A DNA stretch of 64,000 bases from an uncultured Fibrobacter sp. (lineage in GTDB: Bacteria; Fibrobacterota; Fibrobacteria; Fibrobacterales; Fibrobacteraceae), in the NCBI GenBank assembly GCA_946413655.1, contig CAMKLO010000007.1, positions 1-64,000 on the forward strand, read 5' to 3'. Positions 6,762-40,292 of the stretch are shown piece after piece. The position numbers were made by a program, and so were the translations under genes. Each line of letters opens with the position of its first letter. Position 1 is the stretch's first letter. The notes beneath the pieces are model-generated. The model had not been told where the DNA came from. It saw only the letters and a list, made by a program, of their open reading frames with translations, and searched no databases.

Positions 6762-6785
6762 TTCGATAAACTCAGTGCATCGGCT

Positions 6786-6832
6786 CAGCGACCTTATTTC
6801 TCTCGTCTCTAGTCTCTCGTCTCTCGTCTTAA
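6786..6832. repeat. Short pyrimidine-rich direct repeats at the gatB 3' end
   Basis: TCTCTCGTCTCTAGTCTCTCG and similar words repeat three to four times immediately downstream of gatB and overlap its last codons. This may be a third, simpler ladder type. There is no matching complementary arm here. Confidence 0.5.
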
Positions 6833-8286: not shown

Positions 8287-8327
8287 AAAAACTCCGTATT
8301 ATTTCACGGGGAAAAATTTAGAAAATA

Positions 8328-10004: not shown

Positions 10005-10115
10005 AAGGGCCTCCTTTAGAACTTATCCGCAATATACAAAAAATCTCCCTCAAAAAGGAGGCTAATTCAAAAAAATAGTCTATCAAAACAAACTCAAGAC
10101 AATCTTTAAAAAACG

Positions 10116-10565
10116 TCAAATTTCATCGAGTGTAACGACGAGCGCATCGGCAGCATCACGGAAGTTCGCGCATTCCGTGAGGATGCAGTCTGCCCCGTTC
10201 ACAAACGCAGTGGCAAGGCGCATGGCCTCCCCTTCCGTCAATTTGTGGTTCGTGCGGGCAGCAGCCGCAAAAAGTTCAGCCGCCTTGAGCGAAACGTCAG
10301 CATTCACTTCGCAAAGGCGTACATTCGAAGACTTCTCGAAAAATTCGCGGTACTGCCTAGCAAGCACACCGTCGTTTGCGCCATACGCCTTTGAGCAGAT
10401 TTCAAACAACGTTACAGATGAAACAAGAACCTGCACGTTATTCTCATAGACTCCATCCAATACGCCCGACACAACCGGGTAATAATCAGGATGCATCTGG
10501 AGGAGCCGCACCAGCGGCCCCGAATCCAAAAACAAAATGCGGCTCTGTTCAATCGACTTAATCAT
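10116..10565 (-). CDS. PIN-domain protein, probable ribonuclease
   Basis: A 149-residue PIN-fold protein. FLDSGPLVRLL carries the first acidic residue, EICSK the second, and DCILTECANF with nearby RD the C-terminal acidic pair, the arrangement of VapC-like Mg-dependent RNases. Its ATG (10565) overlaps the stop of the preceding gene by 8 bases, so translation is coupled. A longer start at 10604 would lie inside that gene and is not preferred. No VapB-like antitoxin lies next to it, so a toxin role is uncertain. Confidence 0.75.
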   Translation of the reverse strand: MIKSIEQSRILFLDSGPLVRLLQMHPDYYPVVSGVLDGVYENNVQVLVSSVTLFEICSKAYGANDGVLARQYREFFEKSSNVRLCEVNADVSLKAAELFAAAARTNHKLTEGEAMRLATAFVNGADCILTECANFRDAADALVVTLDEI

Positions 10566-24531: not shown

Positions 24532-25794
24532 ATGTTAATTTCATTTACCGTAGAAAACTATCGTTCTTTCAAAGATAAAAAGACATTTTCTTTGAAAGCT
24601 TCATCCATGCAAGAACACAAGACATTTGTCCGTGAAGACAATGGTGTAAAGCTGTTGCCAGCGGTTGCCATTTATGGCGCAAATTCTAGCGGCAAGAGCA
24701 ACTTGTTATCGGCTTTAAAAATGATGAAGAAAGTTCTGCTTTCATCCGTCAAAACAAACCCAACCGAAACTTTAAAAACGGATACATTCAAACTTGATGA
24801 GCGATATTTTCAGAAGCCAACGCTGTTCGAAGCTGTATTCACCTCGGATGACTACACCTACAGATACGGATTCGAGTATAGTCAAAAAAAAATTAATGGC
24901 GAATGGTTGTATTCAATAAAAAATGATCGTGAAAAACTCTTATTCGTCAGAAACAATGAAGGAATTGGAGTAACTAAGGATTTCCCAGAAGGCAACGGAA
25001 AAGAGGACTCCACGGCAGAGAACCGCCTGTTTTTATCTCTAGTTGCCCAACTCAATGGAAAAATTTCGCTTTCCGTTATGAGCTGGTTCGAAAATCTTAA
25101 AATCATCTCAGGTGTCGAAGATTTCTATTTCAGGGATTTTTCTAGAGATTTCCTTTTTGCAGGCACCAATGAGTCCAGGAAGGCAAAAGAATTCATCGAC
25201 TCCATGGATTTAGGCTTTACAAACATACAAAAAGCCGAGCCGGAAGAGAATCTGTACAACCTTGGTTCCAAACCTAAGACCGCATTGGAAAGCTTAATAA
25301 GCTTAAATTGGGATAGAGTCTGGTCCTCAAAAATAAAAACAGGGCACAAGGTCCGCAACAATGATGGAACCTTCACAGAAACATTCTTCTCAAATGACGA
25401 AATGGAATCTGAAGGAACAAAAAAAATCATCAATATGTCCGGCCCAATCATAGACACCCTATCTAAAGGCGGAACAATCGTTGTAGATGAATTTGACGCA
25501 AAGTTGCACCCATTACTTACCCAAAAAATCATCACAACATTCAATTCACCGAACACCAACCCAAACAACGCCCAGCTAATATTCGCCACGCACGACACAA
25601 ACCTGCTCAGCAACAAAATTTTCCGCAGAGACCAAATTTGGTTTGCAGAAAAGAACCGCGAAGACGAATCAACCGACATCTATCCGCTTAGCGAAATCAA
25701 GGAACAAAATGGAGAAAAGATAAGACAAGATCGAGTTTACGAGAAGGACTACATCAACGGCAGATACGGTGCAATTCCTTACCTGAGAGGCTAA
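24532..25794 (+). CDS. ABC-type AAA ATPase of an AbiL/RloAB-like defence pair
   Basis: A 420-residue OLD/RloA-like ATPase. The N-terminus ISFTVENYRSFKDK is typical of AAA_15/AAA_21 proteins. Walker A is YGANSSGKS (~residues 49-57) and the Walker B region is GTIVVDEFDAKLHP, followed by the His switch in FATHD. It probably senses infection or nucleic-acid ends and gates the TOPRIM partner. The partner gene starts 1 base after its stop. No ribosome-binding site is visible before the ATG, so the transcript may be nearly leaderless. AbiL of Lactococcus and RloAB of Campylobacter hsd loci are the nearest described arrangements. Confidence 0.85.
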   Translation: MLISFTVENYRSFKDKKTFSLKASSMQEHKTFVREDNGVKLLPAVAIYGANSSGKSNLLSALKMMKKVLLSSVKTNPTETLKTDTFKLDERYFQKPTLFEAVFTSDDYTYRYGFEYSQKKINGEWLYSIKNDREKLLFVRNNEGIGVTKDFPEGNGKEDSTAENRLFLSLVAQLNGKISLSVMSWFENLKIISGVEDFYFRDFSRDFLFAGTNESRKAKEFIDSMDLGFTNIQKAEPEENLYNLGSKPKTALESLISLNWDRVWSSKIKTGHKVRNNDGTFTETFFSNDEMESEGTKKIINMSGPIIDTLSKGGTIVVDEFDAKLHPLLTQKIITTFNSPNTNPNNAQLIFATHDTNLLSNKIFRRDQIWFAEKNREDESTDIYPLSEIKEQNGEKIRQDRVYEKDYINGRYGAIPYLRG

Positions 25795-25795
25795 G

Positions 25796-26539
25796 ATGAA
25801 AAAACTCTCATTAGAAGAAATTGCCAAAGAAGAAGAGACACGAGTTCAACGAATTGAGCAGGAATCGCAACCTAAAGAACGATTCGTAAAACTCACATTT
25901 CTGATTGCTACCGAAGGCACTCAAACTGAACCGAATTATTTTAAAGCACTAAAAACGGAACTTGAAAAGTCAAACCGTTTTAATATTGATATTTCTATTG
26001 AAGGCAAGGGCAAATCAACGACCGCACTTGTCGGCAAAGTTCATCGTCAAATAGAATTCAACCACCAGGAATACGACCGCGTTTGGGTCGTCTTTGACAG
26101 GGACGAATTCCCAGATTTTGACGAAGCCATCCAACAAGCCGCAGAACACAAAATCAATTGCGCGTGGTCAAACGAAAGTTTTGAACTTTGGCTGTTATTG
26201 CATTTCAAAGAAGTTTCTAAACACACGAGTCGCAAAGATCTTTGCGACATGCTAGAAACTGCCATCCGCAATGAATTGCACAAAACAGATCCAAACGCCC
26301 TCTATGATTATTCTAAAGGCGATGAAAAAATCTATGAGCACATAACAAAACTCGGCAATGAAGCGGATGCATTTACACGGGCCGAAACGCTTAGAAATAA
26401 TTTCAAAGATTCAACAAATACGCCGAGATCACAAAATCCTTGCACACACGTCGATGAACTTGTATTTGAATTGAGAAATCCGGAACTGACGGCAGAGAAA
26501 GTTCGGGAAGAAGAAAAGAACGGAAGCTCAGGCCACTAA
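25796..26539 (+). CDS. rloB: RloB-type TOPRIM-like nuclease
   Basis: A 247-residue RloB-family protein. After a charged N-terminal ~30 residues comes IATEGTQTEPNYFKAL, which carries the conserved TOPRIM-like glutamate, then WVVFDRDEFPDF with the DxD pair, then NESFELWLLLHF, typical of the family. It is the likely effector of the ATPase encoded just upstream, and presumably cleaves RNA or DNA when released. The two genes are separated by one base, and the next gene follows after 12. Confidence 0.88.
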   Translation: MKKLSLEEIAKEEETRVQRIEQESQPKERFVKLTFLIATEGTQTEPNYFKALKTELEKSNRFNIDISIEGKGKSTTALVGKVHRQIEFNHQEYDRVWVVFDRDEFPDFDEAIQQAAEHKINCAWSNESFELWLLLHFKEVSKHTSRKDLCDMLETAIRNELHKTDPNALYDYSKGDEKIYEHITKLGNEADAFTRAETLRNNFKDSTNTPRSQNPCTHVDELVFELRNPELTAEKVREEEKNGSSGH

Positions 26540-26551
26540 AGGACTCATTCA

Positions 26552-27232
26552 ATGATCCTCAACAACGACCCACTCGGCATACGCAGCGTTGATATTAAAT
26601 ACGAAGGTTCGACTAGAGCGACCCAGTATTGCATTGACGATTTTATGAAGCGTCTTTACGGCAGTCGTAAAATTACGGACATGACCATTTTAACTTGCCA
26701 AAATTATCACGCCTTAATGCTATGCTTTGAAAATCGGGACCTCGTTGTCTTTATTAAAAGCGGACTGACTTCGGGTTATCCAGGCGAAGGCCCCAAGGGA
26801 ACATCGCTTATCATCCGCCTTGCCGAAGAAGCCGGAATTACTATTAAAGAACTGAACGCAGCACCTTCGCTACTCAAAAGAATCAATTCTTCTCTCGCTA
26901 CAATAAAGGATGTGGAACTCATAAAAAAGAATAGCAAAGAAAGTCTTAATTACGACCGCCTTTGCCTACCGAATGTCGATAACGAATATGTCAAACGAGC
27001 GAAGGAATCCTTCAAGAAAAATAAGGATATCATCTTTGTTCGAACAGAAAACGAAAAGACGAAGGACACCGTTGAACTTGACAGGGCTAAAGCGCTAAAG
27101 TTGCTGCAGGAAATTCACGATGCAGTTGTTAAGTCAAAGAAAACAAGTCTTTTAACAAAAATGGTGATGGGAGCAAAAATAATATCAATAATAAAAGATC
27201 TCTATGATTTAACAGATTATATTCAACAATAA
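26552..27232 (+). CDS. Third gene of the defence operon, unknown family
   Basis: A 226-residue soluble protein. The N-terminal ~110 residues look like an alpha/beta domain with a distinctive SGLTSGYPGEGPKGTSLIIRL-like glycine segment. The C-terminal half is Lys-rich and helical, ending in a hydrophobic stretch (MVMGAKIISIIKDLYDL). AAAGGA precedes the ATG. It sits 12 bases after rloB and 17 bases before the next gene, so it is part of the same operon. A role as sensor or adaptor is conceivable but only inferred from position. Confidence 0.65.
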   Translation: MILNNDPLGIRSVDIKYEGSTRATQYCIDDFMKRLYGSRKITDMTILTCQNYHALMLCFENRDLVVFIKSGLTSGYPGEGPKGTSLIIRLAEEAGITIKELNAAPSLLKRINSSLATIKDVELIKKNSKESLNYDRLCLPNVDNEYVKRAKESFKKNKDIIFVRTENEKTKDTVELDRAKALKLLQEIHDAVVKSKKTSLLTKMVMGAKIISIIKDLYDLTDYIQQ

Positions 27233-27249
27233 TTTTTTGGGGGCATATC

Positions 27250-27963
27250 ATGAAAATTCTAAATCTCTGCACTTTAGCCGGCTTTCCCTCTTTTTTCTTT
27301 GAAGAGATGGAAAAACATACAGAATTACTGTTGAACACAGAATTTGAAGATGAATTGGTTGAAAATCCAGTCTTTCAAGATTTGATTGATAGAATAACAG
27401 ATTTCTCCAAAGACTGTAAAATCATTGGCTACCACTACACTAGAGCCGATAAAGACGATATTATAAAAGGCGGTCTGAAATCAAGAACTGGTCAAGAAAT
27501 CAGGGAAACTTTTTTATCTCGTTATGGAAAATTGTTTACATCTGAAGAACTAGATACAATCAAAAATGCGTGGAATGCCTACTTTAACAAGAATATGATT
27601 TCTTGCCGAGATTATCGGATATTTTTTAACCTAACCACTACAGCCCTTTTTGACAGTGGTGCAGAGCCGTTATTGCAATATTATGGTGGGGAACAAGTTT
27701 ATATGCCTTTAAAAGGCTTCCCTTCTATTGCAAAGAAAATCCAAAATATAGGTTCTCCACTTCTGATCAAGGCAACATTGGATCCTTGCCAATTAAAACT
27801 TTTTGATTATGAAGACATAGCTAAAGTTGCGATATCGTCATATCACCGTTTATTGCGTCCTGATGCATCCCAATGTGACCGTGACATCTATCAGCAGAAA
27901 CCTATTTTACCTAGTCAAATAGAGATTGTTGATATAAAGAACCTGCTATCCCAAAGACGATAA
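27250..27963 (+). CDS. Possible ADP-ribosyltransferase-like effector
   Basis: A 237-residue protein. KIIGYHYTRADKDDIIKGGLKSR around residues 59-81 resembles the first motif of ART-fold enzymes (His-aromatic-Thr followed by an Ile/Leu..Gly-Leu helix cap, as in DarT-like proteins). A later LLQYYGGEQVYMP segment carries a candidate catalytic Glu. The remaining motifs are not clear, so the assignment is tentative. It is the last gene of the RloAB-type operon, where an extra effector would make sense. Its stop is 34 bases from the convergent DUF4238 gene. Confidence 0.5.
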   Translation: MKILNLCTLAGFPSFFFEEMEKHTELLLNTEFEDELVENPVFQDLIDRITDFSKDCKIIGYHYTRADKDDIIKGGLKSRTGQEIRETFLSRYGKLFTSEELDTIKNAWNAYFNKNMISCRDYRIFFNLTTTALFDSGAEPLLQYYGGEQVYMPLKGFPSIAKKIQNIGSPLLIKATLDPCQLKLFDYEDIAKVAISSYHRLLRPDASQCDRDIYQQKPILPSQIEIVDIKNLLSQRR

Positions 27964-27997: not shown

Positions 27998-29194
27998 TTA
28001 TGTTTTTTTATTTAAACGTAATTTATTCATCCATTCACTTCTTTTAATTGAATTCAGTATTTCATTAATCTTTTGTTCGCGAAACTTGGCATAATCAGCG
28101 CCTTCACACAAACCGTTATCAACGGCTTTGGCGAATTCTCTTACTAAAAATTTTGTTTTTTCATTTCGCACCCATTTTCTTAAATCCCGGTTTCCCTGAT
28201 AAGCCTCTCTAAGCATAACCGGTTTTATAGAAAATACTGATAGTTTAAAGCCAATGTTAATTGATGATGGCGAAATTCTAAACAAAAAGTTATTCGGTTT
28301 GAGCGGATTTTCATATTTCCCAACGGGGTCTAATTGCGCATCAATATGCGTTGTTCTAAATAGGGAATACTTCTCACAAGCAACATTGTCGTCTTTTAAA
28401 TAAATATTCTTTTCCGCATTCATAAATTGTAATCGATTCAGTTGCTCAATATCCTTGGGCAATCTTAAGCCGATGACATTTTTCCCAGCAAACTTATAAG
28501 CATCATAATCATAAAAACAAATCACTCTTCTTGGAGATAACGGGAAATATATTTGAAGTCCCCTAGAAGCCATTCCATTGCAATTATATTTAACATGCTC
28601 TTCTAAAAGAGGATTTTGAAATACGATTGGATTATCCGAAAGAACAAAATCTTCTTTCGTTTCATTTTCTAAAATAACACATTCTAAATCCATCAGTAAA
28701 GGCTGTTGCAGAACTCCAAATCTAAGGACATATCGAGGAAAATCTTTATCCGTTTCAATCTTGACTTGATCCAGAGGCACGTTAAATTTATTTACCTCGA
28801 TGCATAGTTTGGCAAGAGTTCCATAGGTTTCTTTACCAAATTGTTCCATAACATCTATCATCTTTTTTGTGCGCATATATTGCACGGCAACAAACATGGA
28901 TAGCAAATAGAAGTCTTCATTGGAAATACGTTCTTTAGAATTCAATTCTAAACATTTCTTAAATGTTAATGAAAAAGCCGTCTCCATCCCTCCTAAAGCA
29001 TTTTCAAGAGAACCGTCTTCTCCATAAAAATAATCTTTAGAACATTGACATTTCAATTTGGCATGCGGGATTATTTTTCCTGAAGACAGATTAAACGTCC
29101 GAATCCCGTGACCATCTTCAGAAAAGTTCCGCAAGTAAAACTGCGGAACATAATGCTGATTTTTGGTTTGAGATTTCTTTTGTACAGTTAACAA
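27998..29194 (-). CDS. DUF4238-family protein
   Basis: A 398-residue protein with the family signature KNQHYVPQFYLRNFS at its N-terminus and typical middle segments (FVLSDNPIV, IYFPLSPRRVICFYD). The family is common in defence neighbourhoods, but its activity is not established. The TTG start overlaps the TAA of the Lit-like gene (TTGTTAA), with AAAGG upstream, so translation is coupled. It is the last gene of the long - strand run that starts at hsdR. Confidence 0.85.
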   Translation of the reverse strand: MLTVQKKSQTKNQHYVPQFYLRNFSEDGHGIRTFNLSSGKIIPHAKLKCQCSKDYFYGEDGSLENALGGMETAFSLTFKKCLELNSKERISNEDFYLLSMFVAVQYMRTKKMIDVMEQFGKETYGTLAKLCIEVNKFNVPLDQVKIETDKDFPRYVLRFGVLQQPLLMDLECVILENETKEDFVLSDNPIVFQNPLLEEHVKYNCNGMASRGLQIYFPLSPRRVICFYDYDAYKFAGKNVIGLRLPKDIEQLNRLQFMNAEKNIYLKDDNVACEKYSLFRTTHIDAQLDPVGKYENPLKPNNFLFRISPSSINIGFKLSVFSIKPVMLREAYQGNRDLRKWVRNEKTKFLVREFAKAVDNGLCEGADYAKFREQKINEILNSIKRSEWMNKLRLNKKT

Positions 29195-30081
29195 GCCTTT
29201 ACCATATCATAAATGCATTTAGATAACAAATCATATTGATCTTTAAACGATATTTTTTCATCAATAGGTCCGTCATAACCTCTTTTTTTTAGGAATAACC
29301 AAAAAGACAATGACAAAAATGCATACATCGAAGCATCATCCCCAAAATTGCCGTTTTTCTCTATTTCTGCAATAGCAAAAGATATTCTTTGCCATGGATT
29401 TCCATATATCTTACGGTATTCAGGATTCATCCCATCTCTATCTAATAATATCATTTGAGAGAAAATGACCCCCACCCATGCATCATTCTCTAATATATCT
29501 TTTTGGCAAGAAGAAACATGTTCAATATATTTATTAAACGAAAAAAGATCCGCTTCTTGCTCTATGTGGGATGACGGGGAAGAATAATCCTCTGCATGAT
29601 TTTTTTCAATATGACCAAATTCATGCAAAATCATTGCAATTATCACGTAATGGAATAACAAATTAATACGTTTTACAGAAGGGTGATCAACATTCATTGG
29701 ATTAATATTTTTAAATTTTTTGGGCCAAGGATTTTGAAATTGCAATTCTTTTCCATCATTAAAATCAATGACCTTTTGCAAATTCAATGTTTCTGAGACT
29801 TGGGTCGATCTGATTATTGTATTCCATTTCGCTTCAACATCAGATAACACCAAACCTTGCTTGTGACAATAGTCATATATCGTATAAGTATAAGCAATCC
29901 ATGACCATATATATTCTATTGCAAACAATGATATCGTGACTTTTCTTCTACAATCTGTTTCTATAATGAAATTAGCATCATAACAGACATTTATATTTAT
30001 CGTCTCAAATTTTTTTTGCAAATCCTCTGGAAGAAAGGTAAATGCATCCTTTTTTAAACAACCAACCAATTGACGTATCAT
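29188..30081 (-). CDS. Lit-like phage-exclusion metallopeptidase (peptidase U49 type)
   Basis: A 297-residue predicted zinc peptidase. ILHEFGHIEKNH gives HExxH, and IEQEADLFSF ~20 residues later gives the third ligand. The upstream IEYIWSWIAY block resembles the LEYIWAF block of E. coli e14 Lit, which is also about 297 residues and cleaves EF-Tu during T4 infection. The similarity was judged from memory, by eye. AAGGA precedes the ATG. If active, it would stop translation in infected cells; the substrate here is unknown. It forms a coupled pair with the DUF4238 gene. Confidence 0.75.
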   Translation of the reverse strand: MIRQLVGCLKKDAFTFLPEDLQKKFETININVCYDANFIIETDCRRKVTISLFAIEYIWSWIAYTYTIYDYCHKQGLVLSDVEAKWNTIIRSTQVSETLNLQKVIDFNDGKELQFQNPWPKKFKNINPMNVDHPSVKRINLLFHYVIIAMILHEFGHIEKNHAEDYSSPSSHIEQEADLFSFNKYIEHVSSCQKDILENDAWVGVIFSQMILLDRDGMNPEYRKIYGNPWQRISFAIAEIEKNGNFGDDASMYAFLSLSFWLFLKKRGYDGPIDEKISFKDQYDLLSKCIYDMVKAC

Positions 30082-30104
30082 ATATTATATCCTTTTTCTC
30101 AACA

Positions 30105-30974
30105 TTACTCTTGCGATTTAATTATCTCATAATTTCCCAAATTTGTATTTGCATCATCATTGGGAATCAATCGTAAAACGAAAGTTTCAATATTATCTAT
30201 GGCTTCAGGGACAAGAACTTCAATAGCTGATACATATCTAGTTAAATCACCCATTCGTAAATCCCAAGCCCCACGTTTTTTTAAATTTCCATTTTCTGGA
30301 AGGAAAAGAGATCTGTTTATTTTATTATCCAGCTGCTGTGTAATTTCGCCATACAAACCCGTCTGAGCTTGTGTTTGACCAAAATACAATATTCTGCCCG
30401 CACTGTCATACATTGCATAAACACCAATCTTCTGCGAACCATCTTTATTTTTCAAGAGATCCTGAATTCGTTTTTCTTCAGCGGATTGTTCTTTCGAAAA
30501 AAGTTTCCAGCTATTTTTGGGATAACGAGATTTTCTATTTCTTTTTTTTGAAATGCAAATTGGACTACATTCTTCAAATTCAAATATCGATCTAAAAATT
30601 TGTGATGAATGACGAGACAAAACAGAATTTAGCATGTCTTTCGAAAAAGGGATTCCTCGTTTCAATTGAGAAACCATTGAATCCGTACAATTTAATAATT
30701 TAGCAATTTCTGTAGCTTTACTATATCCAAGATTTTCTTTTAACACAGAAAAAATTTTTTCTGCGATTTCTTTATTCGCCTGAATTTTTCCTAATTCAAA
30801 AATTTTTTCATATGTAGCATTTATAGCTTTTTTGACAACTCTTTCTCCACATCCATTTAAACAATATTGTGAATAATTTTGCGGAACAAACCCTATTTCA
30901 GTCCCCCTTCCCCCTTTGTTTTTTGAAATTTTTGCTTTTTGAAGTAAAAGATCTATCACTTCCATTTCGGTCAT
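30105..30974 (-). CDS. HTH plus GIY-YIG nuclease fusion
   Basis: A 289-residue protein. Residues ~70-110 form a Xre-like helix-turn-helix (KATEIAKLLNCTDSMVSQLKRG). Residues ~183-285 resemble a GIY-YIG nuclease: GVYAMYD followed by ILYFGQTQ, and a late ETFVLRLIPNDDANTNLG segment with the expected catalytic Glu and Asn. The HTH could target the nuclease to its own promoter or to a partner DNA site. AAAGGAG stands before the ATG. It lies between the SMEK gene and the Lit-like gene in one run. Confidence 0.75.
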   Translation of the reverse strand: MTEMEVIDLLLQKAKISKNKGGRGTEIGFVPQNYSQYCLNGCGERVVKKAINATYEKIFELGKIQANKEIAEKIFSVLKENLGYSKATEIAKLLNCTDSMVSQLKRGIPFSKDMLNSVLSRHSSQIFRSIFEFEECSPICISKKRNRKSRYPKNSWKLFSKEQSAEEKRIQDLLKNKDGSQKIGVYAMYDSAGRILYFGQTQAQTGLYGEITQQLDNKINRSLFLPENGNLKKRGAWDLRMGDLTRYVSAIEVLVPEAIDNIETFVLRLIPNDDANTNLGNYEIIKSQE

Positions 30975-31017
30975 ATAAATATAACTCCTTTTTTAAAATC
31001 GTTTTCTTTGATGAAAA

Positions 31018-31998
31018 TCAAAATCTACTTTCATCAAATTCAATATTTGAATCAAGTAAAGAAAAATCAAGACGAACAATTAAGCGATGCCACCATTTTT
31101 GATCAATCGCTAAAAGCCGTCTAAAAGCTTCAAAGTATAAGCAAACAATATTCTCGCCATTATACCAAAGAACATCTCCGCGCTTATTCACTACAGCATC
31201 TAAATCAGAGCGAGTCAAGCCTACTGCAAATGCAGTAGTATCCAAAGTATTTGGAATAACATAATAGTTCGTCCGATTTTTCTTACACATCTTCATAAAA
31301 CACAATATTACTTTCCGTTCTTCAGAAGAATATCCCTCCAAAACATCATAGAGATCATCAAATTCTTTTCTAATGTCATCATCTATGGTTTTTACGATTC
31401 CCGCAAGGCTTTTGTGTTTCCTTGACTGAAATTCATCGCAATCAAGTAAAGAAGAGTCATCTTTTAAAAACTTCTTATAATACCCAAGGTTATCTTTGAC
31501 ATATTTCACAATTGGTTCCATTCTCTTTGCATCAAGAGGTTCTATTTCATGCAACAAGTCTTGAACATCAATCAAATATTTATCGTCATCATAAATTTGA
31601 TCATTATCTTTAAATTTAAACTGAACCGCATTCACTCTAGTCTTGTCAAAAACAGGTTTTGAATCTATATATAACATGTATATTTCATTATATTTTTTTC
31701 GAAGACCGTTATCAACAACTTTATCAAGTGTTGAATGAATTTTTTTAGAACTTTGGTTGCTCGTCACTTGAACGGCTATATGAGCTGCATCATCAGCCAA
31801 ATCAATTCCCACGCTATTTCTTTTGACAGAATTGGTATTTATAAAGCTCTTATTCCACAAAATGTTTAATAGTCCACAAAAAAAGTTTTCGCAATCATGA
31901 TTTATATCATAACGCTGTTCTTTAACACATGAATTAACAACATATCGCAAGACACTTAAATCTATAATGATTTCTCTAAACATTTCTGAAGTCTTCAT
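31018..31998 (-). CDS. SMEK-domain protein, predicted nuclease-like
   Basis: A 326-residue protein. Residues ~60-95 match the SMEK-domain pattern: an Asn-rich lead-in, then VGIDLADDAAHIAVQVTSNQ and SSKKIHSTLDK. The Asp and Gln-Val-Thr core looks like a PD-(D/E)XK-type fold, but nuclease activity is inferred. The rest is helical with no assignment. AAGGAG precedes the ATG. It starts 37 bases after hsdS ends and appears to head the accessory block behind the restriction genes. Confidence 0.7.
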   Translation of the reverse strand: MKTSEMFREIIIDLSVLRYVVNSCVKEQRYDINHDCENFFCGLLNILWNKSFINTNSVKRNSVGIDLADDAAHIAVQVTSNQSSKKIHSTLDKVVDNGLRKKYNEIYMLYIDSKPVFDKTRVNAVQFKFKDNDQIYDDDKYLIDVQDLLHEIEPLDAKRMEPIVKYVKDNLGYYKKFLKDDSSLLDCDEFQSRKHKSLAGIVKTIDDDIRKEFDDLYDVLEGYSSEERKVILCFMKMCKKNRTNYYVIPNTLDTTAFAVGLTRSDLDAVVNKRGDVLWYNGENIVCLYFEAFRRLLAIDQKWWHRLIVRLDFSLLDSNIEFDESRF

Positions 31999-32035
31999 AT
32001 ACTACTCCTTATTAAAAGATTTCTTACTAAAAAAG

Positions 32036-33280
32036 TTATAGATCTACCACAACTTGTCCGTTCATGAGGAGCGGGAGGAGTTTGTCGCGGAGGGTGGTGA
32101 GTTTTTGTGATTCTTTCGCTTTTTCAATGATTTCATTATACAACGGATTTACCTTTTCATAATATTGGTGTAAAACATTTTGTGTAGGAAGGACGACAGG
32201 CGACTTATCCACGGTATCTTTATTGATATGCGGTTGTTGAGCTCCACCCCTTAATGTGTTTAGACGAGGAATTTCATTTACCAAATATGGGTAAAGATAT
32301 CCGTTTTTCAAAATGCCATTTTCTTTAATTCCAGCCACAGATTGGTTAATGCACGCATCTATCGCCATAATGCTAGGACGCAAATGTCGCGTTATAGACA
32401 ATGTGACAGAACCTGCAGGCAAATACGCTGTTGCACTATTTTTTACTGCATCTTCTGTAATACGTTTTTCCGCATTTAAAATCGGAAATTCTGCAACTTC
32501 ACCGGAATTTAACCACGGAATATTTCCATTCCAATAGCTTTCATTTTCTGTAGATGGTGTTCCCCCAAGGACCGTTTCACAAACATTTCCTACAACATCA
32601 ACTTCCCATCCTGCAGGGATTTCGCGTTTGAGGGTGGGGTTGTAGGTCATGGGGCCGCCGGTGGTTTTGTAGGGGTGGCCGTTTTTGTCGGGGAAATCGT
32701 ATTGGACGAACCAGTAGTCGTATAGGCGTTTTGCCATTGCTTCGAGTTTCTGGTTCATCTTTTTGTTCAGGGCGATTTTGTCGTCTAATGCGGAAAGAAC
32801 GGAAGCGATTTTCTTTTGGTCAGCAATACCACATGCCGGAATTTCGTAACCAGGCATTTCATCCACAGAAATTCTATTTACAGTACTGCCTTTAATTATA
32901 TGATTTTTTATATAACATTTCCATTGAGGAGACTGAAAAAAATAATACAGCCATTTATAATCAACAGCGTCACTTTTTACACGAATAATTCCTAAACGGC
33001 GACCTAAACATCCATAAAAATTTTCAGGAATAATTGCATATCGTCCTAGCGTTGCCTCATATGAAAAGACTATATCTTTAAATTGGGGAACAACTCTCTT
33101 GGTCCATATTTTATAATCTTCTTCAGACAAAAAAGTAAATTCATTAGGATTAATCTTACAATCCTCAGTAATCGCGTCAATACCCAAATAAACAGGGCCA
33201 TTATCAGTCCTTTTAGGAGTTGCATGCGGTCCATCATAAATAGTCGCAATATCACCTAGTTTGTATTTCGTCATTTCCAT
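32036..33280 (-). CDS. hsdS: Type I restriction specificity subunit HsdS
   Basis: It determines the DNA target of the HsdRMS complex. The ~414-residue protein has two target-recognition domains. The first starts KYKLGDIATIYDG, the second KREIPAGWEVDVVGNV. Each is followed by a conserved helical spacer (KKIASVLSALDDKIALNKK and the C-terminal equivalent). Start at 33280 chosen because GGTGA lies ~8 bases upstream; frames open further upstream run into the inverted repeat at 33310. It is separated from hsdM by two inserted genes. Confidence 0.93.
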   Translation of the reverse strand: MEMTKYKLGDIATIYDGPHATPKRTDNGPVYLGIDAITEDCKINPNEFTFLSEEDYKIWTKRVVPQFKDIVFSYEATLGRYAIIPENFYGCLGRRLGIIRVKSDAVDYKWLYYFFQSPQWKCYIKNHIIKGSTVNRISVDEMPGYEIPACGIADQKKIASVLSALDDKIALNKKMNQKLEAMAKRLYDYWFVQYDFPDKNGHPYKTTGGPMTYNPTLKREIPAGWEVDVVGNVCETVLGGTPSTENESYWNGNIPWLNSGEVAEFPILNAEKRITEDAVKNSATAYLPAGSVTLSITRHLRPSIMAIDACINQSVAGIKENGILKNGYLYPYLVNEIPRLNTLRGGAQQPHINKDTVDKSPVVLPTQNVLHQYYEKVNPLYNEIIEKAKESQKLTTLRDKLLPLLMNGQVVVDL

Positions 33281-33309
33281 ATTCAAGTTCACCAAGATTC
33301 TCTTTATTG

Positions 33310-33423
33310 CCACACGGATTCGGAAAATCTAACGATTTTCCTGATTTTTAATTTTTCCTTTTGCGTTTACAATCATAATATCACTCTCCTTGATTTTCCG
33401 TTAGGAAAATCGAATCCGTGTGG
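33310..33423. repeat. Inverted repeat between hsdS and the GxxExxY gene
   Basis: CCACACGGATTCG at 33310-33322 is matched by its exact complement CGAATCCGTGTGG at 33411-33423. Nested inner palindromes of GATTTTCC/GGAAAATC type are present. A third copy, AATCCGTGTGG, stands at 33850-33860 on the other side of the GxxExxY gene, so that gene is bounded by 11-bp direct repeats (33413-33423 and 33850-33860). Confidence 0.85.
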
Positions 33424-33450: not shown

Positions 33451-33834
33451 TTAATTTTCCTTTTTGAAATTCGTTATACGTTCCCATTTTAACGAGGTTT
33501 CCCCAAAGTTCACCAACAATCCAACATCTTTTTTTGCTGCATTCAGATAATTCAATACTTGAGCTTTGTGCGGTTTCGACAGCACACTCACAGATTTTAG
33601 TTCAACGATTATTTTATCATAACAGATGAAATCCGCATAGTATTCTTTCTTCAGCGGTTTTCCCTTATAAAATACAGGGAGCAATTTTTCTCTTTCATAC
33701 GGGATGCCTTGCATTTTAAACTCTTCTTCCAAGGCTTCTTGATACACGGCTTCAAGGAATCCATGACCTAGTTCATTATGGACTTCAAAACAAGCCTTTA
33801 TTATATTTCCCGTTTCGTTCTCGTTAATTATCAT
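33451..33834 (-). CDS. GxxExxY protein (PD-(D/E)XK_3 type)
   Basis: A 127-residue protein with the naming motif in GHGFLEAVYQEAL and a PD-(D/E)XK-like core: ADFICYDKIIVELKSV carries Asp and Glu-x-Lys. The family occurs as intervening sequences in 23S rRNA genes and scattered elsewhere; its function is unsettled. Start at 33834 supported by AAGGAAA. It sits inside the hsd operon between the AlbA_2 gene and hsdS and is bracketed by repeats, which suggests later insertion as a small cassette. Confidence 0.88.
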   Translation of the reverse strand: MIINENETGNIIKACFEVHNELGHGFLEAVYQEALEEEFKMQGIPYEREKLLPVFYKGKPLKKEYYADFICYDKIIVELKSVSVLSKPHKAQVLNYLNAAKKDVGLLVNFGETSLKWERITNFKKEN

Positions 33835-33871
33835 ACATTTTCCTTGAACAATCCGTGTGGCATCAAAAACT

Positions 33872-35284
33872 TCAATTTTCAATTATCTCCCAGTGTCCGC
33901 CTTTGTCTGCACCAACTCTGCTAATCACTCCTTTTTTCTTTAGTTCTCTCAATTGCCACTCAACGCCTTTTGACGAAATTTCTAGCAAGCTCGAAAGTTC
34001 CGCCGTTGTTATGTCAGGCTTGTTTTTTATAGCCTGAATAATTTTCTCCCTAGTTTTGTTTTTCTCCCTAGTTTTCTCCCTAGTTTTCTCCCTAGTATTT
34101 TCATTTATTGTATCATTATTAGGGTCACTCATTTTGGCCCTATAAAAGTTAACCCTAAGCAAATCACCGATTTCAAGGAATTCGGGTGGTCTAATTTTAA
34201 GTTCCTTGCAAGTATCAATAATCTTTTTGAGTCCAGTGCCCCAACCTTCGACCACGCCCAGTTTTTCACAGACCGATGCCAGGAGTTTATTCCGAATAGA
34301 AGACCGTCCAGAAAGAGCCTCTTCCAGAGTCAAAGTTCCATACAAGGCCCCAGGCGACGAAATCTCCACGCGGTCATCGTAAACTGCGACTTGCACGCAG
34401 GAACTCATCATGTAATTGCGGTGGATAACCGCATTTAGGATTAGTTCACGCAAAGCCTTCTCCGGCAATTCGCAAGATTCCCGACGGTAAAGTCCTTCAA
34501 ACTTGACAATCGTCTTGAGATAAGTTTGTACAAACTTAAACGCTCCGTCAACTTGATCCAGCAAGGGGCCTTCAAAGTCCTTCTTGTCTAAAAATTCTAC
34601 CCGGTCCTTTCCGCGGAAACGAGCACATTGGATCTTGCAAAAGAAATCAGGGATTCCTGCAAAAATCGCATAGGCATTAGTGGCAACCAAAGACCCGCCG
34701 TCTTCACGGAGTAGGCCCGTATTGAAAAGAAAATCCTTGGGAATCTTTTTTCCGCTATGGCTTTCAAAATTCCGGCACAGTCGCTGCACATCCCTTCTGG
34801 ATACTTTCAGTTCTGCATGAGGGAGTTCATCATAATAGCGGCGCTGTTTCTTTAAATTCAGTTCAAACAGCGTGTTGGCATCGGCCAATCGGGTCGTGGC
34901 TCCAAGGCGAATAAACGTCCCGCTTTCGATACCAAGTTTTTTGAGATAATAAGGCGTACTGTTACCAGGAAAAACTTCCACTACCAAGACAACGCGGTCA
35001 TTTACCGATTCCTGATAGATGTCGAATACAACTTGCGGGTTGCAGGCCTGAGCAATGGCATCTGCGATTGAGTCCTTGAGTTTAAAAATGTCCGTATGGG
35101 CGGGCAGGCCGACAACCTGTCGTTCATCATTGACGCCTACAACAAACCTGCCACCGGCACCATTTGCGAAGGCGACGATTGTCTTCAGCCACTTGTGGGA
35201 TTCCCTAGGGAGTTCCTGTTTGAACTCCAAGGTCCGGCTTTCACCCAATTTGATTTCTTTTTCCAAACTCATATTTATTCCCAT
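33872..35284 (-). CDS. AlbA_2/Schlafen-type protein with HATPase_c_4 and winged helix
   Basis: A 470-residue protein. The N-terminal AlbA_2 domain (ESRTLEFKQELP.., GRFVVGVND) is followed by the HATPase_c_4-like region (LRELILNAVIHRNY, VEISSPGALYG, GWGTGLKKI) and a C-terminal winged helix (TTAELSSLLEISSKGVEWQL). A REKT tract coded by 12-bp repeats (34046-34099) links the last two. Such genes are frequent between hsdM and hsdS; a regulatory role is usual to propose but unproven. An alternative start at 35272 is equally possible. Confidence 0.85.
   Translation of the reverse strand: MGINMSLEKEIKLGESRTLEFKQELPRESHKWLKTIVAFANGAGGRFVVGVNDERQVVGLPAHTDIFKLKDSIADAIAQACNPQVVFDIYQESVNDRVVLVVEVFPGNSTPYYLKKLGIESGTFIRLGATTRLADANTLFELNLKKQRRYYDELPHAELKVSRRDVQRLCRNFESHSGKKIPKDFLFNTGLLREDGGSLVATNAYAIFAGIPDFFCKIQCARFRGKDRVEFLDKKDFEGPLLDQVDGAFKFVQTYLKTIVKFEGLYRRESCELPEKALRELILNAVIHRNYMMSSCVQVAVYDDRVEISSPGALYGTLTLEEALSGRSSIRNKLLASVCEKLGVVEGWGTGLKKIIDTCKELKIRPPEFLEIGDLLRVNFYRAKMSDPNNDTINENTREKTREKTREKNKTREKIIQAIKNKPDITTAELSSLLEISSKGVEWQLRELKKKGVISRVGADKGGHWEIIEN
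34046..34099 (-). repeat. 12-bp tandem repeats coding a REKT linker
   Basis: CTCCCTAGTTTT is repeated at 34046, 34064, 34076 and, with one change, 34088. The + strand text corresponds to the repeated REK(T) residues of the AlbA_2 protein. In-frame length variation is likely. Confidence 0.8.
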
Positions 35285-35319: not shown

Positions 35320-35460
35320 CCCTTCGGCAAGCTCAGGGACCTTATCCGGTAACCACGCTCAAGATGACACCGTCGTTAAGGAGATTCCCACCTTGGTGGC
35401 CACGCGCACTAAGCACTAAAGTGCTAAGTGCTGTCCGCCCGGCTTCGCGGGAATGACAAT
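35320..35460. repeat. Composite REP-like element reading into hsdM
   Basis: It contains CCTTCGGCAAGCTCAGGGACC, then GGAGATTCCC, the palindrome GCACTAAAGTGC within AAGCACTAAAGTGCTAAG, and GCGGGAATGACA. The last part (35424-35460) is translated as the C-terminal end of HsdM. The arrangement GGAGAT..CCC, GTGCTAAAGCAC, GGGCATGACA recurs at 46924-47006. Confidence 0.75.
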
Positions 35461-37097
35461 GATGCAAGTTGTTTCTGGATTTCCTTCTCGAGTTTGTGGC
35501 TTTCGGCGAACATGGCGGCGAGTTCTTCGGTGTCGGCTTTCATCTGGGCGTTGAATTCGTCGGCGGTAATGTCCACGTAGTCAATCTTGATGTCGAAATA
35601 CTGGCCGGCGCTCAGGCTGTAGCCTTTTTCCTTGACTTCGCTGTAGGTCACGACTACGCTAAAGTCTTCAACCGCTTTTTTGTTGCGGAAGGTAGAGACA
35701 ATTTTCTCAATTTCACCATCATTCAAACGAACTTTCTTGAGACCGTTTGCGTCCTTATATTCTTCACCGAGTTTACTTGCGTCAACAAGAATTACCTTGC
35801 CGTTCGACTTTTTTACAGTCTTGTCAAAGAACAATACCGAAACATTAGTGCCAGTATTTGCGAACACGTTACTAGGCATACTCACCACGCCATAGACTAT
35901 ACGGTCATCTACAATTTTTTTTAGAATCTTATTCTCGATTCCGCTTTTTGCAGTAATGAACCCGGTCGGGATCACGATGGCGCCCTTGCCACCATCCTTG
36001 ATGCTGTTGACCACATGCTGAATAAAGCATGTGTAAATCGCCATGGAGTCCTTTTTCTTATTGGGAACTTTCGGAACGCCGGCCCAAAAGCGACTCTTAC
36101 CCCACTTACTTTCAATGTTGTCACGTGTATCACTAAAATCCATCTTGAACGGTGGATTACTCACCACGAAATCAAATGTGCGGAGGCTCTTACCATCGTC
36201 ACTTTTGTGATAGGGATACTGCAACGTATCGCCCTGAATAGCATGGTCCAAACTAGAAACGAGACCATTCAAAAGCAAATTTAACTTAAGCATTTTATTA
36301 GAACGCTGCGAAATGTCCTGCGAAAAGATTGTGCATCGGTCTTCGCCAATCTGGTGGCTAAGCGCCATAAGGAGCGTACCGGTTCCAGCACTGGGGTCAT
36401 AGCACTCCATGTTGTGCAAGTCAGCATTATCACCTACCAAAAGGCGAGCCATGATTTTAGCAATCGCCTTGGGAGTGTAATATTCGGCATACTTGCCACC
36501 GCCCGCAGTGTTGTAATCCTTGATAAGATATTCAAAGATATCCGAGAAAAAATCATAATGTTCAGAGAAGGTTTCCTCAAAGCTAAACTTTGCTAGTTTA
36601 TCAATCAGCGCACGGGCAAAAGGCGCTCTTTCTGCCTCATCAGTTACAAAAACAGTTATTTTTTCAAAAATTGGGATTTTTTTCTCGTTAGAGGTCTTGG
36701 TATAATATATTTGCTTGTTTTTATCTGCGATATCAACCATGGTATCGTCAAAGATTACATCAAACTCACCTAAAGCCTGCTTGTTCCACAGAGTTCCAAT
36801 CAGATGATCTGGCTCCAAACGCGGAACTTCGGGTGGCAAAAACAAGAAAATCTTCTGGCGATCTTTCTCGGAAAGCTTCGCATAGGCTTCTTCCCACTTA
36901 TTTCCAGCATCAACCAAAGCCTTTATGCAAGGCAACTTGACCTTTTTCAACTCATGGCCAAACTTGTCTGCCATAAACTTGTACAAAAACACCTGGGTAA
37001 TAACCTTATATTCATTACCATCGTTACCCATGCCTTTTTGTTGGCAAACAGCTTTCAATCCATCAATAAGTTCAATTGTTTTTTCTTTGATATTCAT
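35424..37097 (-). CDS. hsdM: Type I restriction-modification methyltransferase HsdM
   Basis: An N6-adenine methyltransferase of 557 residues. The N-terminal helical domain is followed by the SAM motif YDPSAGTGTLLMALS and the catalytic NPPF (in VVSNPPFKMDF), and EYYTPKAIAKIMARLL is typical. The last ~10 residues (SFPRSRADST) are translated from the adjacent repeat element, so the stop codon was supplied by the repeat. Its ATG directly abuts the hsdR stop. Confidence 0.96.
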   Translation of the reverse strand: MNIKEKTIELIDGLKAVCQQKGMGNDGNEYKVITQVFLYKFMADKFGHELKKVKLPCIKALVDAGNKWEEAYAKLSEKDRQKIFLFLPPEVPRLEPDHLIGTLWNKQALGEFDVIFDDTMVDIADKNKQIYYTKTSNEKKIPIFEKITVFVTDEAERAPFARALIDKLAKFSFEETFSEHYDFFSDIFEYLIKDYNTAGGGKYAEYYTPKAIAKIMARLLVGDNADLHNMECYDPSAGTGTLLMALSHQIGEDRCTIFSQDISQRSNKMLKLNLLLNGLVSSLDHAIQGDTLQYPYHKSDDGKSLRTFDFVVSNPPFKMDFSDTRDNIESKWGKSRFWAGVPKVPNKKKDSMAIYTCFIQHVVNSIKDGGKGAIVIPTGFITAKSGIENKILKKIVDDRIVYGVVSMPSNVFANTGTNVSVLFFDKTVKKSNGKVILVDASKLGEEYKDANGLKKVRLNDGEIEKIVSTFRNKKAVEDFSVVVTYSEVKEKGYSLSAGQYFDIKIDYVDITADEFNAQMKADTEELAAMFAESHKLEKEIQKQLASLSFPRSRADST

Positions 37098-40000
37098 TTA
37101 AGTCCTATAGAAGTTGTTGTACTGGTCGATATACTGTTTTGCGATGCGTTTCTGGATAAATATATAGTCATCCATTTCAGGAGACAACCCCTCAAATTGT
37201 CCGAGCCCTAAGGCAATCTGCTGCATCACTGTTTGGCCAAAATAATCATCCTGTTTCAGAATGTCATTCTTGTTATAAACCTTCTCGTCAATGGTCGTCT
37301 TGACCGTCACCAAAGCCTTCACAATATCTTCATCATACTTGGAGATGATAGGCGCCCTGTGTTTCGGCTCGCGAGCCTTATTTTCTTCACGGATGCGCTT
37401 GTGCACATAGGCAAACTTAGAGTCGCCATTGTAGCACTTTAGTATAGCTTCGTTAGTTTTGCGCAGTTGTTCTAGGCGTTTCAAGATTTCATTCAACGCC
37501 TTGGTTTCTTCGTTGTATTCTGCCATATTGGCAGGAGTAAATCCATGTTTCTTGAAGATTTCGTAGAAGGCGTCTTCAAGGCTTATAAACTCAGGGTCAT
37601 CGTGGTCGAAATTGTCGAGGAAACCACGAACTACGCGATTGTACTTATCTCGTAGTTCTGAGCCACCATCAATAATTTTCAACTCGTCTTTGCCGATACA
37701 GTTGAAATTAAACTCAATATTCAACAAAGCGTCATTAATCGCAGCACGGGAGGCTTCACTATGCTCAATCGCCTCTTTCTGATTAATGATGGCAATGCGG
37801 TGATTCACCTCAGAAAGCATCTGTGGAAGTTTTTCAATCTGTAACTTTTTGAATTCTTCTTTTAACTGGTCATCGCCGAAAGTACGAACCAAGTTGAAAG
37901 CATCCTTCGCGAGTTCCATCGCCTTGCGTAACTGAATCAAGACATTCTTATCTTCCAAGCTGGAAATTTCTTGAGAAAACACTTCGGCGTTATCCGTTGA
38001 ATATTCGAACAATGCCTGCCGAGTTTCACGCACCTGACGAATCAATTCATCCTTATCTTCCATCACTTGGCGGTACATGTCAGGAAGTTTTTCTTCCGTG
38101 GACTCGTCATTCCCATTTTGGTCGGAATTATAACGATTAAGTTCCTGCAAGTAGGCAGCATTGGTTTCATCAAAATTCTGCTTAATATCGGCAAAGTCAA
38201 TCAAGAATCCGCGTTTCATACCTTTATAAGGGCGATTTACGCGAGTAATTGCCTGCAATAAACTATGATCCTTAACTTTACGGCCAAAATACAGACGTTT
38301 CAAGCGAGGAGCATCGAAGCCCGTCAATAACATATTGAAAACGATCAATATGTCTATCTTAAAATTTTTCTTGAAATCAAGAATTGTCTTGCGAAGAGTT
38401 TCCTTATCAGCACTATCATGAAGAATCAAGCCTGCTTTTAAGCTATATGTTTTTGAATGTTCTGCATTGACTTTTTCGAGAACCTCGTCAAAAGCGGAAT
38501 AAAGATTTCGTGCCTGCCCAGAAGATTCACAAATAATCATACCACCCAAAGAATTATCGTCTTGGATAGCACGGAAAGAAATCAAGTCATTGATAATATA
38601 GCGGAGCAAAGCTCTCACATAAGTCGGATGTTCAATAATTTGGTTCTTGGAAACCGAACCTTTTTCAACAAGCGTCTTTACATTTTCGTACGCTTCCGTG
38701 ATTTTCTTGCGATAGCTGGTCTCGATTTCTTCGCGGATAATCTTGAGCGTGTAACCATCCTGAATGGAACGGTCGTAATAATAGGTGTGGAAATAATCGC
38801 CAAAGACCTTGCAACTAGCCTTTTCGCTACCGATAAGCGGGGTACCGGTCAACGCAATCTTTACAGAACCCTTGTCAGCATTAAATAGGTTCAAAAGGAA
38901 GCATCCCTCTGGCTTGTAACCACGATGCGCCTCGTCCATAATAAAGATGCGCTGCAAGTTTGTCGAATAACCCGGAATGTCCACCTTTTCCGTATCGTCC
39001 TTGAACTTCTGGATATTCACGACTGTAATTTCATCTTCACCAGAATTTCCTTCCAAGGCTTGGTTTTCACGGAACTGTTTCATCAGTTCATCGCGTGTAT
39101 TCGCCGTTGAAACCTTGAGACCACGGGCTGCAAACTCATCGCTCGACTGTTCCAACAAATCCAAGCGGTCCACAATAAAATAGAACTTGGCCACTATGTT
39201 TTTCTTGGAGTAGTAATCCTTCAAGACTTTTGTCAAGTGGAACGATAAAGCCGTTTTTCCCGAGCCTTGAGTATGCCACACCACGCCAGACTTTATACCT
39301 GCCGATAACTTTTCACGGATAGCAAGTGCCGCGAACATTTGCTGATATCGCATGATGTGTTTTTCATCTTTGATCTCTATGGTTCCGTCGTCATCTTCTT
39401 TTTCTTCGTGCAAGTAGGCTATGCCGTACTTGAGCAAGAACAGCAAGCGCTCTGGGCTCACCATCGACGTAAGCACACGATTTGTAGCCGAATTTATGTT
39501 AAGGTTTGTTTGGTACTCTGGATTTTCACGAAGAACAGGAACGTTGAAATCCATCAAGATGCGCTTTTCAACATCGGCATCAATTGGAGCATACGGAAAA
39601 TTCTTATTGAAAGGCGCAACAGCAGCTCGTGCCGGATTCTCTTCGCGGAAGCAGTTGAACTTAGCCTCGTTCCTAGCCGCAGTGCAATAGAAAACGCCCT
39701 CCACCGGAACCACGCCACCCTTGGCATCGTATTCCATATTGTTCGAGAAAATCATCAACTGCGTAATGTTGATGAACCTGCGGAATTTCTTGTTCGGGAA
39801 ACGGATTTCGTTCATCCGCTTGCTCTCGGCAACCATGCCGCCCGCATTGTTCGGCTTCTTGACTTCGATAAAGACCAAAGGCAAGCCATTTATAAACAGC
39901 GTAATGTCCGGGCGAAACTCATCATCACCATTCTTGCAAGTAAATTCAGCCGTGCAATGATATGTGTTATTTTCGGGATGTTCAAAATCCACCAAGCGCA

Positions 40001-40292
40001 CCGGAGAGACCGAAGTCAAACGCTTGTAAAACTGACGCCCCAAATCATCATCATCTAGTTCCTTGCGGATTTCGGAAAGAACGCTTTCTGGAGTGACGCC
40101 ATTAGCCACTGCCGCCGGGTTCAACTTTTTGAACTGCGTTTCAAAAATATTTTTTAAGATGTTGGTTTCTGGGTCGTAAACTCCAGTCGCTCCCATCGGA
40201 ATTTTGCCGTAATATGTATAGCCGATACGAGTCAAATGGACAAGCGCAGTAAGTTGCACTCGCGTAGCCTCATTAAAATCATTCTTCGCCAT
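37098..40292 (-). CDS. hsdR: Type I restriction endonuclease/translocase HsdR
   Basis: A 1064-residue motor and nuclease subunit. The N-terminal nuclease core is FRPDITLFINGLPLVFIEVKKPN (Asp, then Glu-x-Lys). The SF2 motor has Walker A HTQGSGKTALS (~residue 342), DEAHRG and QAITRVNRPY; the C-terminal helical region binds HsdM. AAAGGAATATGT precedes the ATG. It is the first gene of the operon, and its stop is immediately followed by the hsdM start. Confidence 0.96.
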   Translation of the reverse strand: MAKNDFNEATRVQLTALVHLTRIGYTYYGKIPMGATGVYDPETNILKNIFETQFKKLNPAAVANGVTPESVLSEIRKELDDDDLGRQFYKRLTSVSPVRLVDFEHPENNTYHCTAEFTCKNGDDEFRPDITLFINGLPLVFIEVKKPNNAGGMVAESKRMNEIRFPNKKFRRFINITQLMIFSNNMEYDAKGGVVPVEGVFYCTAARNEAKFNCFREENPARAAVAPFNKNFPYAPIDADVEKRILMDFNVPVLRENPEYQTNLNINSATNRVLTSMVSPERLLFLLKYGIAYLHEEKEDDDGTIEIKDEKHIMRYQQMFAALAIREKLSAGIKSGVVWHTQGSGKTALSFHLTKVLKDYYSKKNIVAKFYFIVDRLDLLEQSSDEFAARGLKVSTANTRDELMKQFRENQALEGNSGEDEITVVNIQKFKDDTEKVDIPGYSTNLQRIFIMDEAHRGYKPEGCFLLNLFNADKGSVKIALTGTPLIGSEKASCKVFGDYFHTYYYDRSIQDGYTLKIIREEIETSYRKKITEAYENVKTLVEKGSVSKNQIIEHPTYVRALLRYIINDLISFRAIQDDNSLGGMIICESSGQARNLYSAFDEVLEKVNAEHSKTYSLKAGLILHDSADKETLRKTILDFKKNFKIDILIVFNMLLTGFDAPRLKRLYFGRKVKDHSLLQAITRVNRPYKGMKRGFLIDFADIKQNFDETNAAYLQELNRYNSDQNGNDESTEEKLPDMYRQVMEDKDELIRQVRETRQALFEYSTDNAEVFSQEISSLEDKNVLIQLRKAMELAKDAFNLVRTFGDDQLKEEFKKLQIEKLPQMLSEVNHRIAIINQKEAIEHSEASRAAINDALLNIEFNFNCIGKDELKIIDGGSELRDKYNRVVRGFLDNFDHDDPEFISLEDAFYEIFKKHGFTPANMAEYNEETKALNEILKRLEQLRKTNEAILKCYNGDSKFAYVHKRIREENKAREPKHRAPIISKYDEDIVKALVTVKTTIDEKVYNKNDILKQDDYFGQTVMQQIALGLGQFEGLSPEMDDYIFIQKRIAKQYIDQYNNFYRT

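Follow-up and report, generated by a model that had tools for sequence, protein, structure and literature searches.

Four genes of defence type follow hsdS directly, where a type I restriction operon of a Fibrobacter genome ends. Are they the parts of one machine, or separate genes that happen to share a place? In the window, i.e. the whole stretch of 64,000 nucleotides that was analysed, the genes run on the minus strand in the order SMEK, HTH-GIY-YIG, Lit and DUF4238. The gaps between hsdS and Lit measure 37, 43 and 23 bases, and Lit overlaps DUF4238 by 7 bases. This layout had been described in an original prediction, made from the letters of the window alone, and it is confirmed; the prediction had also proposed that the four genes might constitute one new defence system, with a possible sense-then-shut-down-translation logic. 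Comparison with related loci suggests a different answer. The four genes are probably cargo in a variable slot behind hsdS. Each would serve as a back-up defence in its own right, probably transcribed together with the others, rather than as one part of a four-part machine.

The genes in question, and the stretch on which the comparison turns, are the following:

32036..33313, minus strand: hsdS (PF01420, E 2.1e-29), with a 3' end conserved in 16 loci
31018..31998, minus strand: SMEK, an Mrr-type nuclease domain with a predicted C-terminal winged helix
30105..30974, minus strand: helix-turn-helix (HTH) and divergent GIY-YIG nuclease-like protein
29188..30081, minus strand: divergent Lit-family metallopeptidase, HEFGH...EQEAD intact (PADLOC Lit, E 1.3e-12)
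27998..29194, minus strand: DUF4238, the final cargo gene, common to the genome G026 (PF14022, E 2.8e-43)
29183..32051, minus strand: the stretch unlike G026 (SMEK, HTH-GIY-YIG and Lit), from blastn and junction alignments of the window with L015/L072

The slot behind hsdS across Fibrobacter

The relatives compared are genomes of the genus Fibrobacter, whose assemblies are often fragmentary; the window genome itself is 88% complete. HsdR orthologues (76-82% identity) are present in 18 other genomes, i.e. in 19 of the 80 genus genomes, own included. With more distant HsdR proteins added, 26 of the 80, own included, pass E 1e-100. The DNA behind hsd was fetched for the 18 orthologues and for two of the seven more distant ones. 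Three orthologous loci (L075, L077 and L086) stop short of hsdS and were excluded, so that 15 loci and the window, 16 in all, were compared. A contig end truncates L073, which was placed with L071 on the strength of its first gene; L071, too, stops close to the end of a contig. The choice of cargo genes and their division into sets are our own, and open reading frames (ORFs) of 60-100 amino acids may not be genes.

All 16 loci have a co-directional gene directly behind hsdS. The loci hold 12 different cargo sets, and the slot contains two to eight genes where it is uncut. Cargo is common to the members of three pairs (G004/G067, G044/G037 and G006/G076), and the first gene is common to G019 and G009. 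The window has a set of its own, though its DUF4238 gene also occurs in G026. Variable genes of defence type are thus found at a fixed place in an orthologous type I restriction-modification operon. Two more distant hsd loci likewise carry cargo behind hsdS, one of them with GmrSD and a UvrD helicase.

The 15 other loci contain 60 cargo proteins (58 and two of G026, whose DUF4238 is not counted), and 42 of these were scanned with Pfam. At E <= 1e-4 a family was matched by 25 of the 42, one of them only below Pfam's cut-off, and by none of the remaining 17. Most of these 25 proteins fall into families that we count as defence-type. The matches comprise GmrSD, TIR with a SLOG protein, SduA_C, putAbiC, KAP, STAND-type NTPase, AAA_21/AAA_15 and SMC-like ATPases, as well as HNH, NYN, Panacea, FRG, an SDH-type protease, DUF5131, DUF2971 and DUF3644. 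The slot contents also include Septu-like genes, and PADLOC assigned two HNH-like partners to PDC-M62B, one of them also to PtuB. An apparent four-gene system has thus become a place in which to seek many: the slot is a compact catalogue of defence-type genes, 17 of whose 42 scanned proteins have no Pfam match. It also lets one compare, in a natural setting, how restriction specificity and second-line defences are shuffled independently of one another.

Two of the cargoes may be mentioned in their own right. L080 and L081, loci of two genomes, have a five-gene cargo in common (1239-1240, 612, 339-340, 366 and 242 amino acids). It contains a 1240-residue protein without Pfam match, DUF5131 and an AAA ATPase with an HNH-like PDC-M62B partner, and may combine described with undescribed defences. 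In G048 (L082 7829-9527), a TIR protein lies beside a SLOG (LD_cluster3) protein, a pair that may be a signalling defence.

The comparison of the window with G026 shows the borders of an exchange. At the same locus of G026, hsdR and hsdM have about 76% DNA identity with those of the window, and DUF4238 together with the convergent module beyond it has 88.7%. The DUF4238 proteins are 93% identical and have the same position. Between hsdS and DUF4238, G026 has a gene of 101 amino acids and a Shedu-type gene (SduA_C, E 1.1e-16) and no SMEK, GIY-YIG or Lit. The breakpoints are sharp. Identity stops in the last codons of hsdS, the left border of the differing stretch being the conserved hsdS 3' end, and returns 5 bases downstream of the Lit stop codon; from there on, 74 bases are identical. 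As the 7-base overlap of Lit and DUF4238 sits at this junction, it does not point to an old operon. At its border, the stretch common to both reads ATG in G026 and GTA in the window, and the two DUF4238 genes may thus use different start codons. Because G026 keeps DUF4238 without the other three genes, the comparison is decisive for DUF4238.

The cargo and the HsdS protein can change separately. A stretch that begins ~70 bases before the end of hsdS and runs through 6.4 kb of cargo is 94.9% identical between G004 and G067; for hsdR and hsdM the figure is 96-97%, yet for the HsdS proteins it is 39%. For the two remaining cargo-sharing pairs, HsdS identity is 65% and 74%. The reverse case is provided by G004 and G030, which have the same chassis and cargo that is not alignable. 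Since one cargo is found with different HsdS proteins, its dependence on the sequence read by HsdS is unlikely. Both the centre and the tail of HsdS hardly vary among the 16 loci, and homologous recombination between conserved stretches would be the simplest explanation of the swaps.

The far side of the slot is formed by the convergent module, which lies on the plus strand and begins 34 bases past DUF4238. It encodes an AbiLi-type ATPase, RloB and two uncharacterised proteins (226 and 237 amino acids). In 10 of the 16 loci, the window included, one or more of these four have a homologue on the far side. RloB is also present with a second type of AbiL, examined in G069.

The four proteins and their proposed action

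The gene assignments of the original prediction hold, and the defence character that it gave to the four genes is supported. The SMEK_N domain scores 108.4 bits with a family cut-off of 27, and its core residues E37, D66, Q77, S80 and K86 are invariant across 11 aligned sequences. Structure prediction suggests that the C-terminal part is a winged helix. SMEK has the same N-terminal nuclease domain as the SMEK/Mrr proteins of short Argonaute and ABC-three-component systems, but it differs from them in this predicted C-terminal part and in its neighbours. The PADLOC Aga_REase models cover SMEK residues 1-180 only (positions 1-177 of 463), and the eight neighbouring proteins scanned include no Argonaute, which a short Argonaute system (SMEK-APAZ) would have together with an APAZ domain. 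The genes after SMEK are GIY-YIG, Lit and DUF4238, with no middle component or DUF2326 ATPase of an ABC-three-component system adjoining.

Lit aligns over its full length with Lit of Escherichia coli e14, HEFGH and EQEAD standing opposite HEISH and EREAD. It thus has the HExxH motif, the downstream glutamate (in EAD) and the full-length similarity of the Lit family. The protein is nevertheless divergent: its identity is 18.8% with E. coli Lit and 23.0% with Aliarcobacter Lit, as against 50.9% between those two, and it scores 34.9 of the 274 bits needed for the NCBIfam Lit equivalog. Unlike its E. coli counterpart, it lies in an hsd cargo slot and not in a prophage. The EF-Tu of this genome keeps the segment RGITINTSH, which we take to be the Lit cleavage site. 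Elsewhere, the same genome encodes a protein of 612 amino acids whose N-terminal part is Lit-like (PF10463, HEVCH) and which has a long extra C-terminal part (G000:C54; L041 8539-10377).

DUF4238 belongs to its Pfam family with 148.8 bits (PF14022, cut-off 27), and HTH-GIY-YIG combines the helix-turn-helix with a divergent, putative GIY-YIG domain. A Foldseek search with two predicted models gave no match below E 0.001. Among solved structures searched by sequence, there was none for Lit, and the matches of DUF4238 (E 0.22) and GIY-YIG (E 0.45) were at chance level.

By combining these assignments with the comparison of loci, it is possible to outline how the slot might work, each functional step being inferred from the protein families. 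A cargo would be swapped by homologous recombination, the conserved hsdS tail serving on one side and the shared far-side DNA on the other. Transcription would then run on from hsd into the new cargo. HsdRMS would cut unmodified phage DNA, and the cargo would add independent second lines. SMEK would act as an Mrr-type DNA nuclease and HTH-GIY-YIG as a DNA-binding nuclease. Lit might be triggered by a phage product and cut EF-Tu, so that translation stops. DUF4238, whose family has a published anti-T7 member, would contribute an activity of its own.

A wider proposal can be put forward tentatively. The type I operons of Fibrobacter might be a plug-in platform, in which the hsdS tail and the AbiL/RloB module frame a slot and whole multi-gene systems, expressed from the hsd promoter, are exchanged by homologous recombination, independently of swaps of the hsdS target. 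In the window, SMEK, GIY-YIG and Lit would then provide restriction with a fail-safe in which DNA cutting is combined with EF-Tu cleavage.

One system, a smaller unit or separate cargo

If the four genes belonged together, some of them should be found together elsewhere. Each protein was searched at E <= 0.001 against 150 genomes, the window genome among them. GIY-YIG was found in the window genome only, Lit in the window genome and as a weak partial match in G047, SMEK in four genomes and DUF4238 in six. Two of the four proteins at one locus were found nowhere beyond the window; in G047 the weak Lit match and SMEK are on separate contigs. Lit, GIY-YIG and SMEK were also searched against a database of 5.8 billion proteins, with a sensitivity limited by the need for shared short words. 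Lit gave one cluster (98%), GIY-YIG nine (97, 74, 70 and 40-44%) and SMEK ten (96%, seven at 64-69%, 34 and 28%). The near-identical clusters (96-98%) of all three probably derive from close strains; one of them is labelled Candidatus Saccharibacteria. Scans of viral contigs with the four proteins found no relatives. In genome contigs, the GIY-YIG alignment had no match and the SMEK alignment three loci, two of them already known. In plasmids, whose gene tables are incomplete, GIY-YIG had no match, Lit one weak match (Aliarcobacter) and SMEK matches in 97 records; in phages, Lit had no match and SMEK was found in 7 records. By eye, no SMEK, GIY-YIG or DUF4238 was recognised among the ORFs surrounding two other Lit-family genes of the phylum (the 612-residue one in G000:C54 and one of 338 residues in G155). 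The original prediction had made its four-gene system depend on co-occurrence elsewhere, and none was obtained, apart from the SMEK, GIY-YIG and Lit sequences of 96-98% in the protein database.

SMEK has other companions at its other places. The 80 genus genomes contain four SMEK genes: the one in the window, one at a further hsd locus of the window genome, and those of G065 and G047. The second SMEK of the window genome (35% identical) lies 25 bases past another hsdS (PF01420, E 2.3e-20), itself 22.7% identical to that of the window, and is followed by a 539-residue protein, which by eye has a membrane-anchored look, and a caspase-like Peptidase_C14 protein. This second locus (L018, G000:C3 44000-63999, at 6626-10869) might constitute a separate defence operon. 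The closest readable relative, SMEK of G065 (66%), comes after an MmeI/DrmMI-like methyltransferase and a 555-residue gene, with an HNH gene and PDC-S56 also near, and SMEK of G047 adjoins a DUF2326 ATPase. Nine of the 104 plasmid and phage records with SMEK were read. None is annotated beside hsdS, one is beside a DpnII-type restriction-modification system, two have SMEK with a DUF2326 protein, and one has a lone SMEK in a P2-like phage. The latter, vB_EcoM-12474III (L097 3905-4987), carries its SMEK between tail genes, like a single-gene defence moron. On a Sphingomonas plasmid (L095 3003-7894), a SMEK/DUF2326 set directly follows a DpnII-type restriction-modification pair. As these numbers are small, a link of SMEK to restriction is treated as a lead.

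A single new four-gene system would agree with the tight spacing and the single orientation of the genes. It is contradicted by the G026 locus, where DUF4238 stands without the rest, unless DUF4238 is optional; no pair of the four was found at another locus of the 150 genomes, and the 7-base overlap coincides with the junction. This candidate, which on these grounds we regard as very improbable, was rejected because of G026 and the lack of co-occurrence, and neither it nor the sense-then-shut-down logic is supported. In an alternative that we consider unlikely, SMEK, HTH-GIY-YIG and Lit form a three-gene system that moved as a unit to the side of an unrelated DUF4238 already in place; phage DNA would be sensed or cut by SMEK or GIY-YIG, with Lit as the arm that stops translation. 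The three genes do lie jointly between the sharp breakpoints at 29183-32051, have a GC content of 31-32% in common, and are all present as near-identical copies (96-98%) in the protein database, where they are known as protein sequences alone. An obligate set would, however, be expected to show Lit relatives at distances matching those of its partners, within the limited sensitivity of that search. GIY-YIG has eight further clusters (40-74%) and SMEK seven (64-69%) and two distant ones, but Lit has the single cluster at 98%. Moreover, the companions of the G065 SMEK are the methyltransferase, HNH and PDC-S56, not GIY-YIG or Lit.

The cargo might also guard the restriction enzyme, remaining silent as long as HsdRMS works and being released when a phage inhibits it. 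PrrC and EcoprrI are an arrangement of this type. Such a guard would explain why a co-directional gene lies straight behind hsdS in 16 of 16 loci, and why SMEK comes first behind two hsdS genes of this genome, 37 and 25 nucleotides away. It is harder to reconcile with cargo that is common to loci with differing HsdS proteins, with SMEK, Lit-family and DUF4238 genes that also occur at places without a visible hsd neighbour, or with the nine plasmid and phage records, of which none has hsdS annotated beside SMEK and one has a DpnII-type system. We hold the guard to be quite improbable, although cargo and restriction enzyme may be coupled in some way.

Several observations weigh against separate cargo, the reading preferred here. 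The swap of SMEK, GIY-YIG and Lit was compared with one genome only, and the three could have moved as a functional unit. The position of SMEK, first behind two different hsdS genes of one genome, hints at a functional link to the restriction enzyme. Certain families, AAA ATPases and their HNH-like partners for example, turn up in several sets, and the sets are thus not wholly independent. The far-side genes were unseen in 6 of the 16 loci, in some of which the contig or the fetched stretch ends early. Lit is just 18.8% identical to the E. coli protein, and co-transcription as well as all activities of the cargo are predictions.

Known systems and the rest of the operon

Defence genes carried within hsd operons are known. 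DarTG2, which was shown to defend, lies between hsdS and hsdR, and that gap has been proposed as a potential recombination hotspot (the RptR paper, PMC12255303). TgvAB, also shown to defend, lies inside the hsd operon of V. cholerae VPI-2 (PMC11411939), and rloA/rloB lie inside the hsd region of C. jejuni, with no function inferred (PMC2928727). The first two papers cite a preprint by Payne et al. on embedded defences. The Fibrobacter slot resembles these cases in having separate genes carried in an hsd operon, RloB homologues included. It differs in that the main slot is at the end of the operon, behind hsdS, and accommodates two to eight genes in 12 sets on the same chassis in one genus. A single DUF4238 protein of P2-like phages gives resistance to T7 (PMC9122126); the window gene belongs to the same Pfam family and, unlike it, closes an hsd cargo. 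No paper naming two of SMEK, GIY-YIG, DUF4238 and Lit was found in the literature search, in agreement with the original prediction, which knew of no described system with this set. Among the papers listed in searches on Fibrobacter, type I restriction, defense islands and hsd hotspots, no title or abstract opening described the slot. The theme is known from hsd-embedded defences of E. coli, Vibrio and Campylobacter; the Fibrobacter slot looks new as a variant.

Upstream of hsdS, the minus-strand order of the operon is hsdR, hsdM, a Schlafen/AlbA gene and a PDDEXK_3 (GxxExxY) gene. The other features of the locus are:

37098..40292, minus strand: hsdR (HSDR_N, PF04313, E 2.9e-28), with the orthologues in 18 other genus genomes
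35424..37097, minus strand: hsdM (N6_Mtase, PF02384, E 3e-66)
33872..35284, minus strand: Schlafen/AlbA-type gene in the hsdM-hsdS interval, a second variable position (PF04326, E 6.2e-25)
33451..33882, minus strand: GxxExxY / PDDEXK_3 protein (PF13366, E 2.9e-41)
24532..27963, plus strand: the far side, with AbiLi-type ATPase (PADLOC AbiLi E 1.5e-93, AbiLii E 9.7e-27), RloB (PF13707, E 7.9e-44) and the 226- and 237-residue proteins

A promoter scan gave 27 sites, compared with 23.8 in shuffles, and a terminator scan 3, compared with 3.3; being close to those of the shuffles, these counts carry no information on co-transcription. The AlbA and GxxExxY genes (window 33451-35284) are 99% identical to those of G037 (L085), whose HsdR is just 76% identical, and the slot between hsdM and hsdS thus seems exchangeable too. 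On the far side, the conserved 237-residue protein (window 27250-27963), which has no family match, contains GYHYT...GGLKSRTG, by eye an ADP-ribosyltransferase-like motif.

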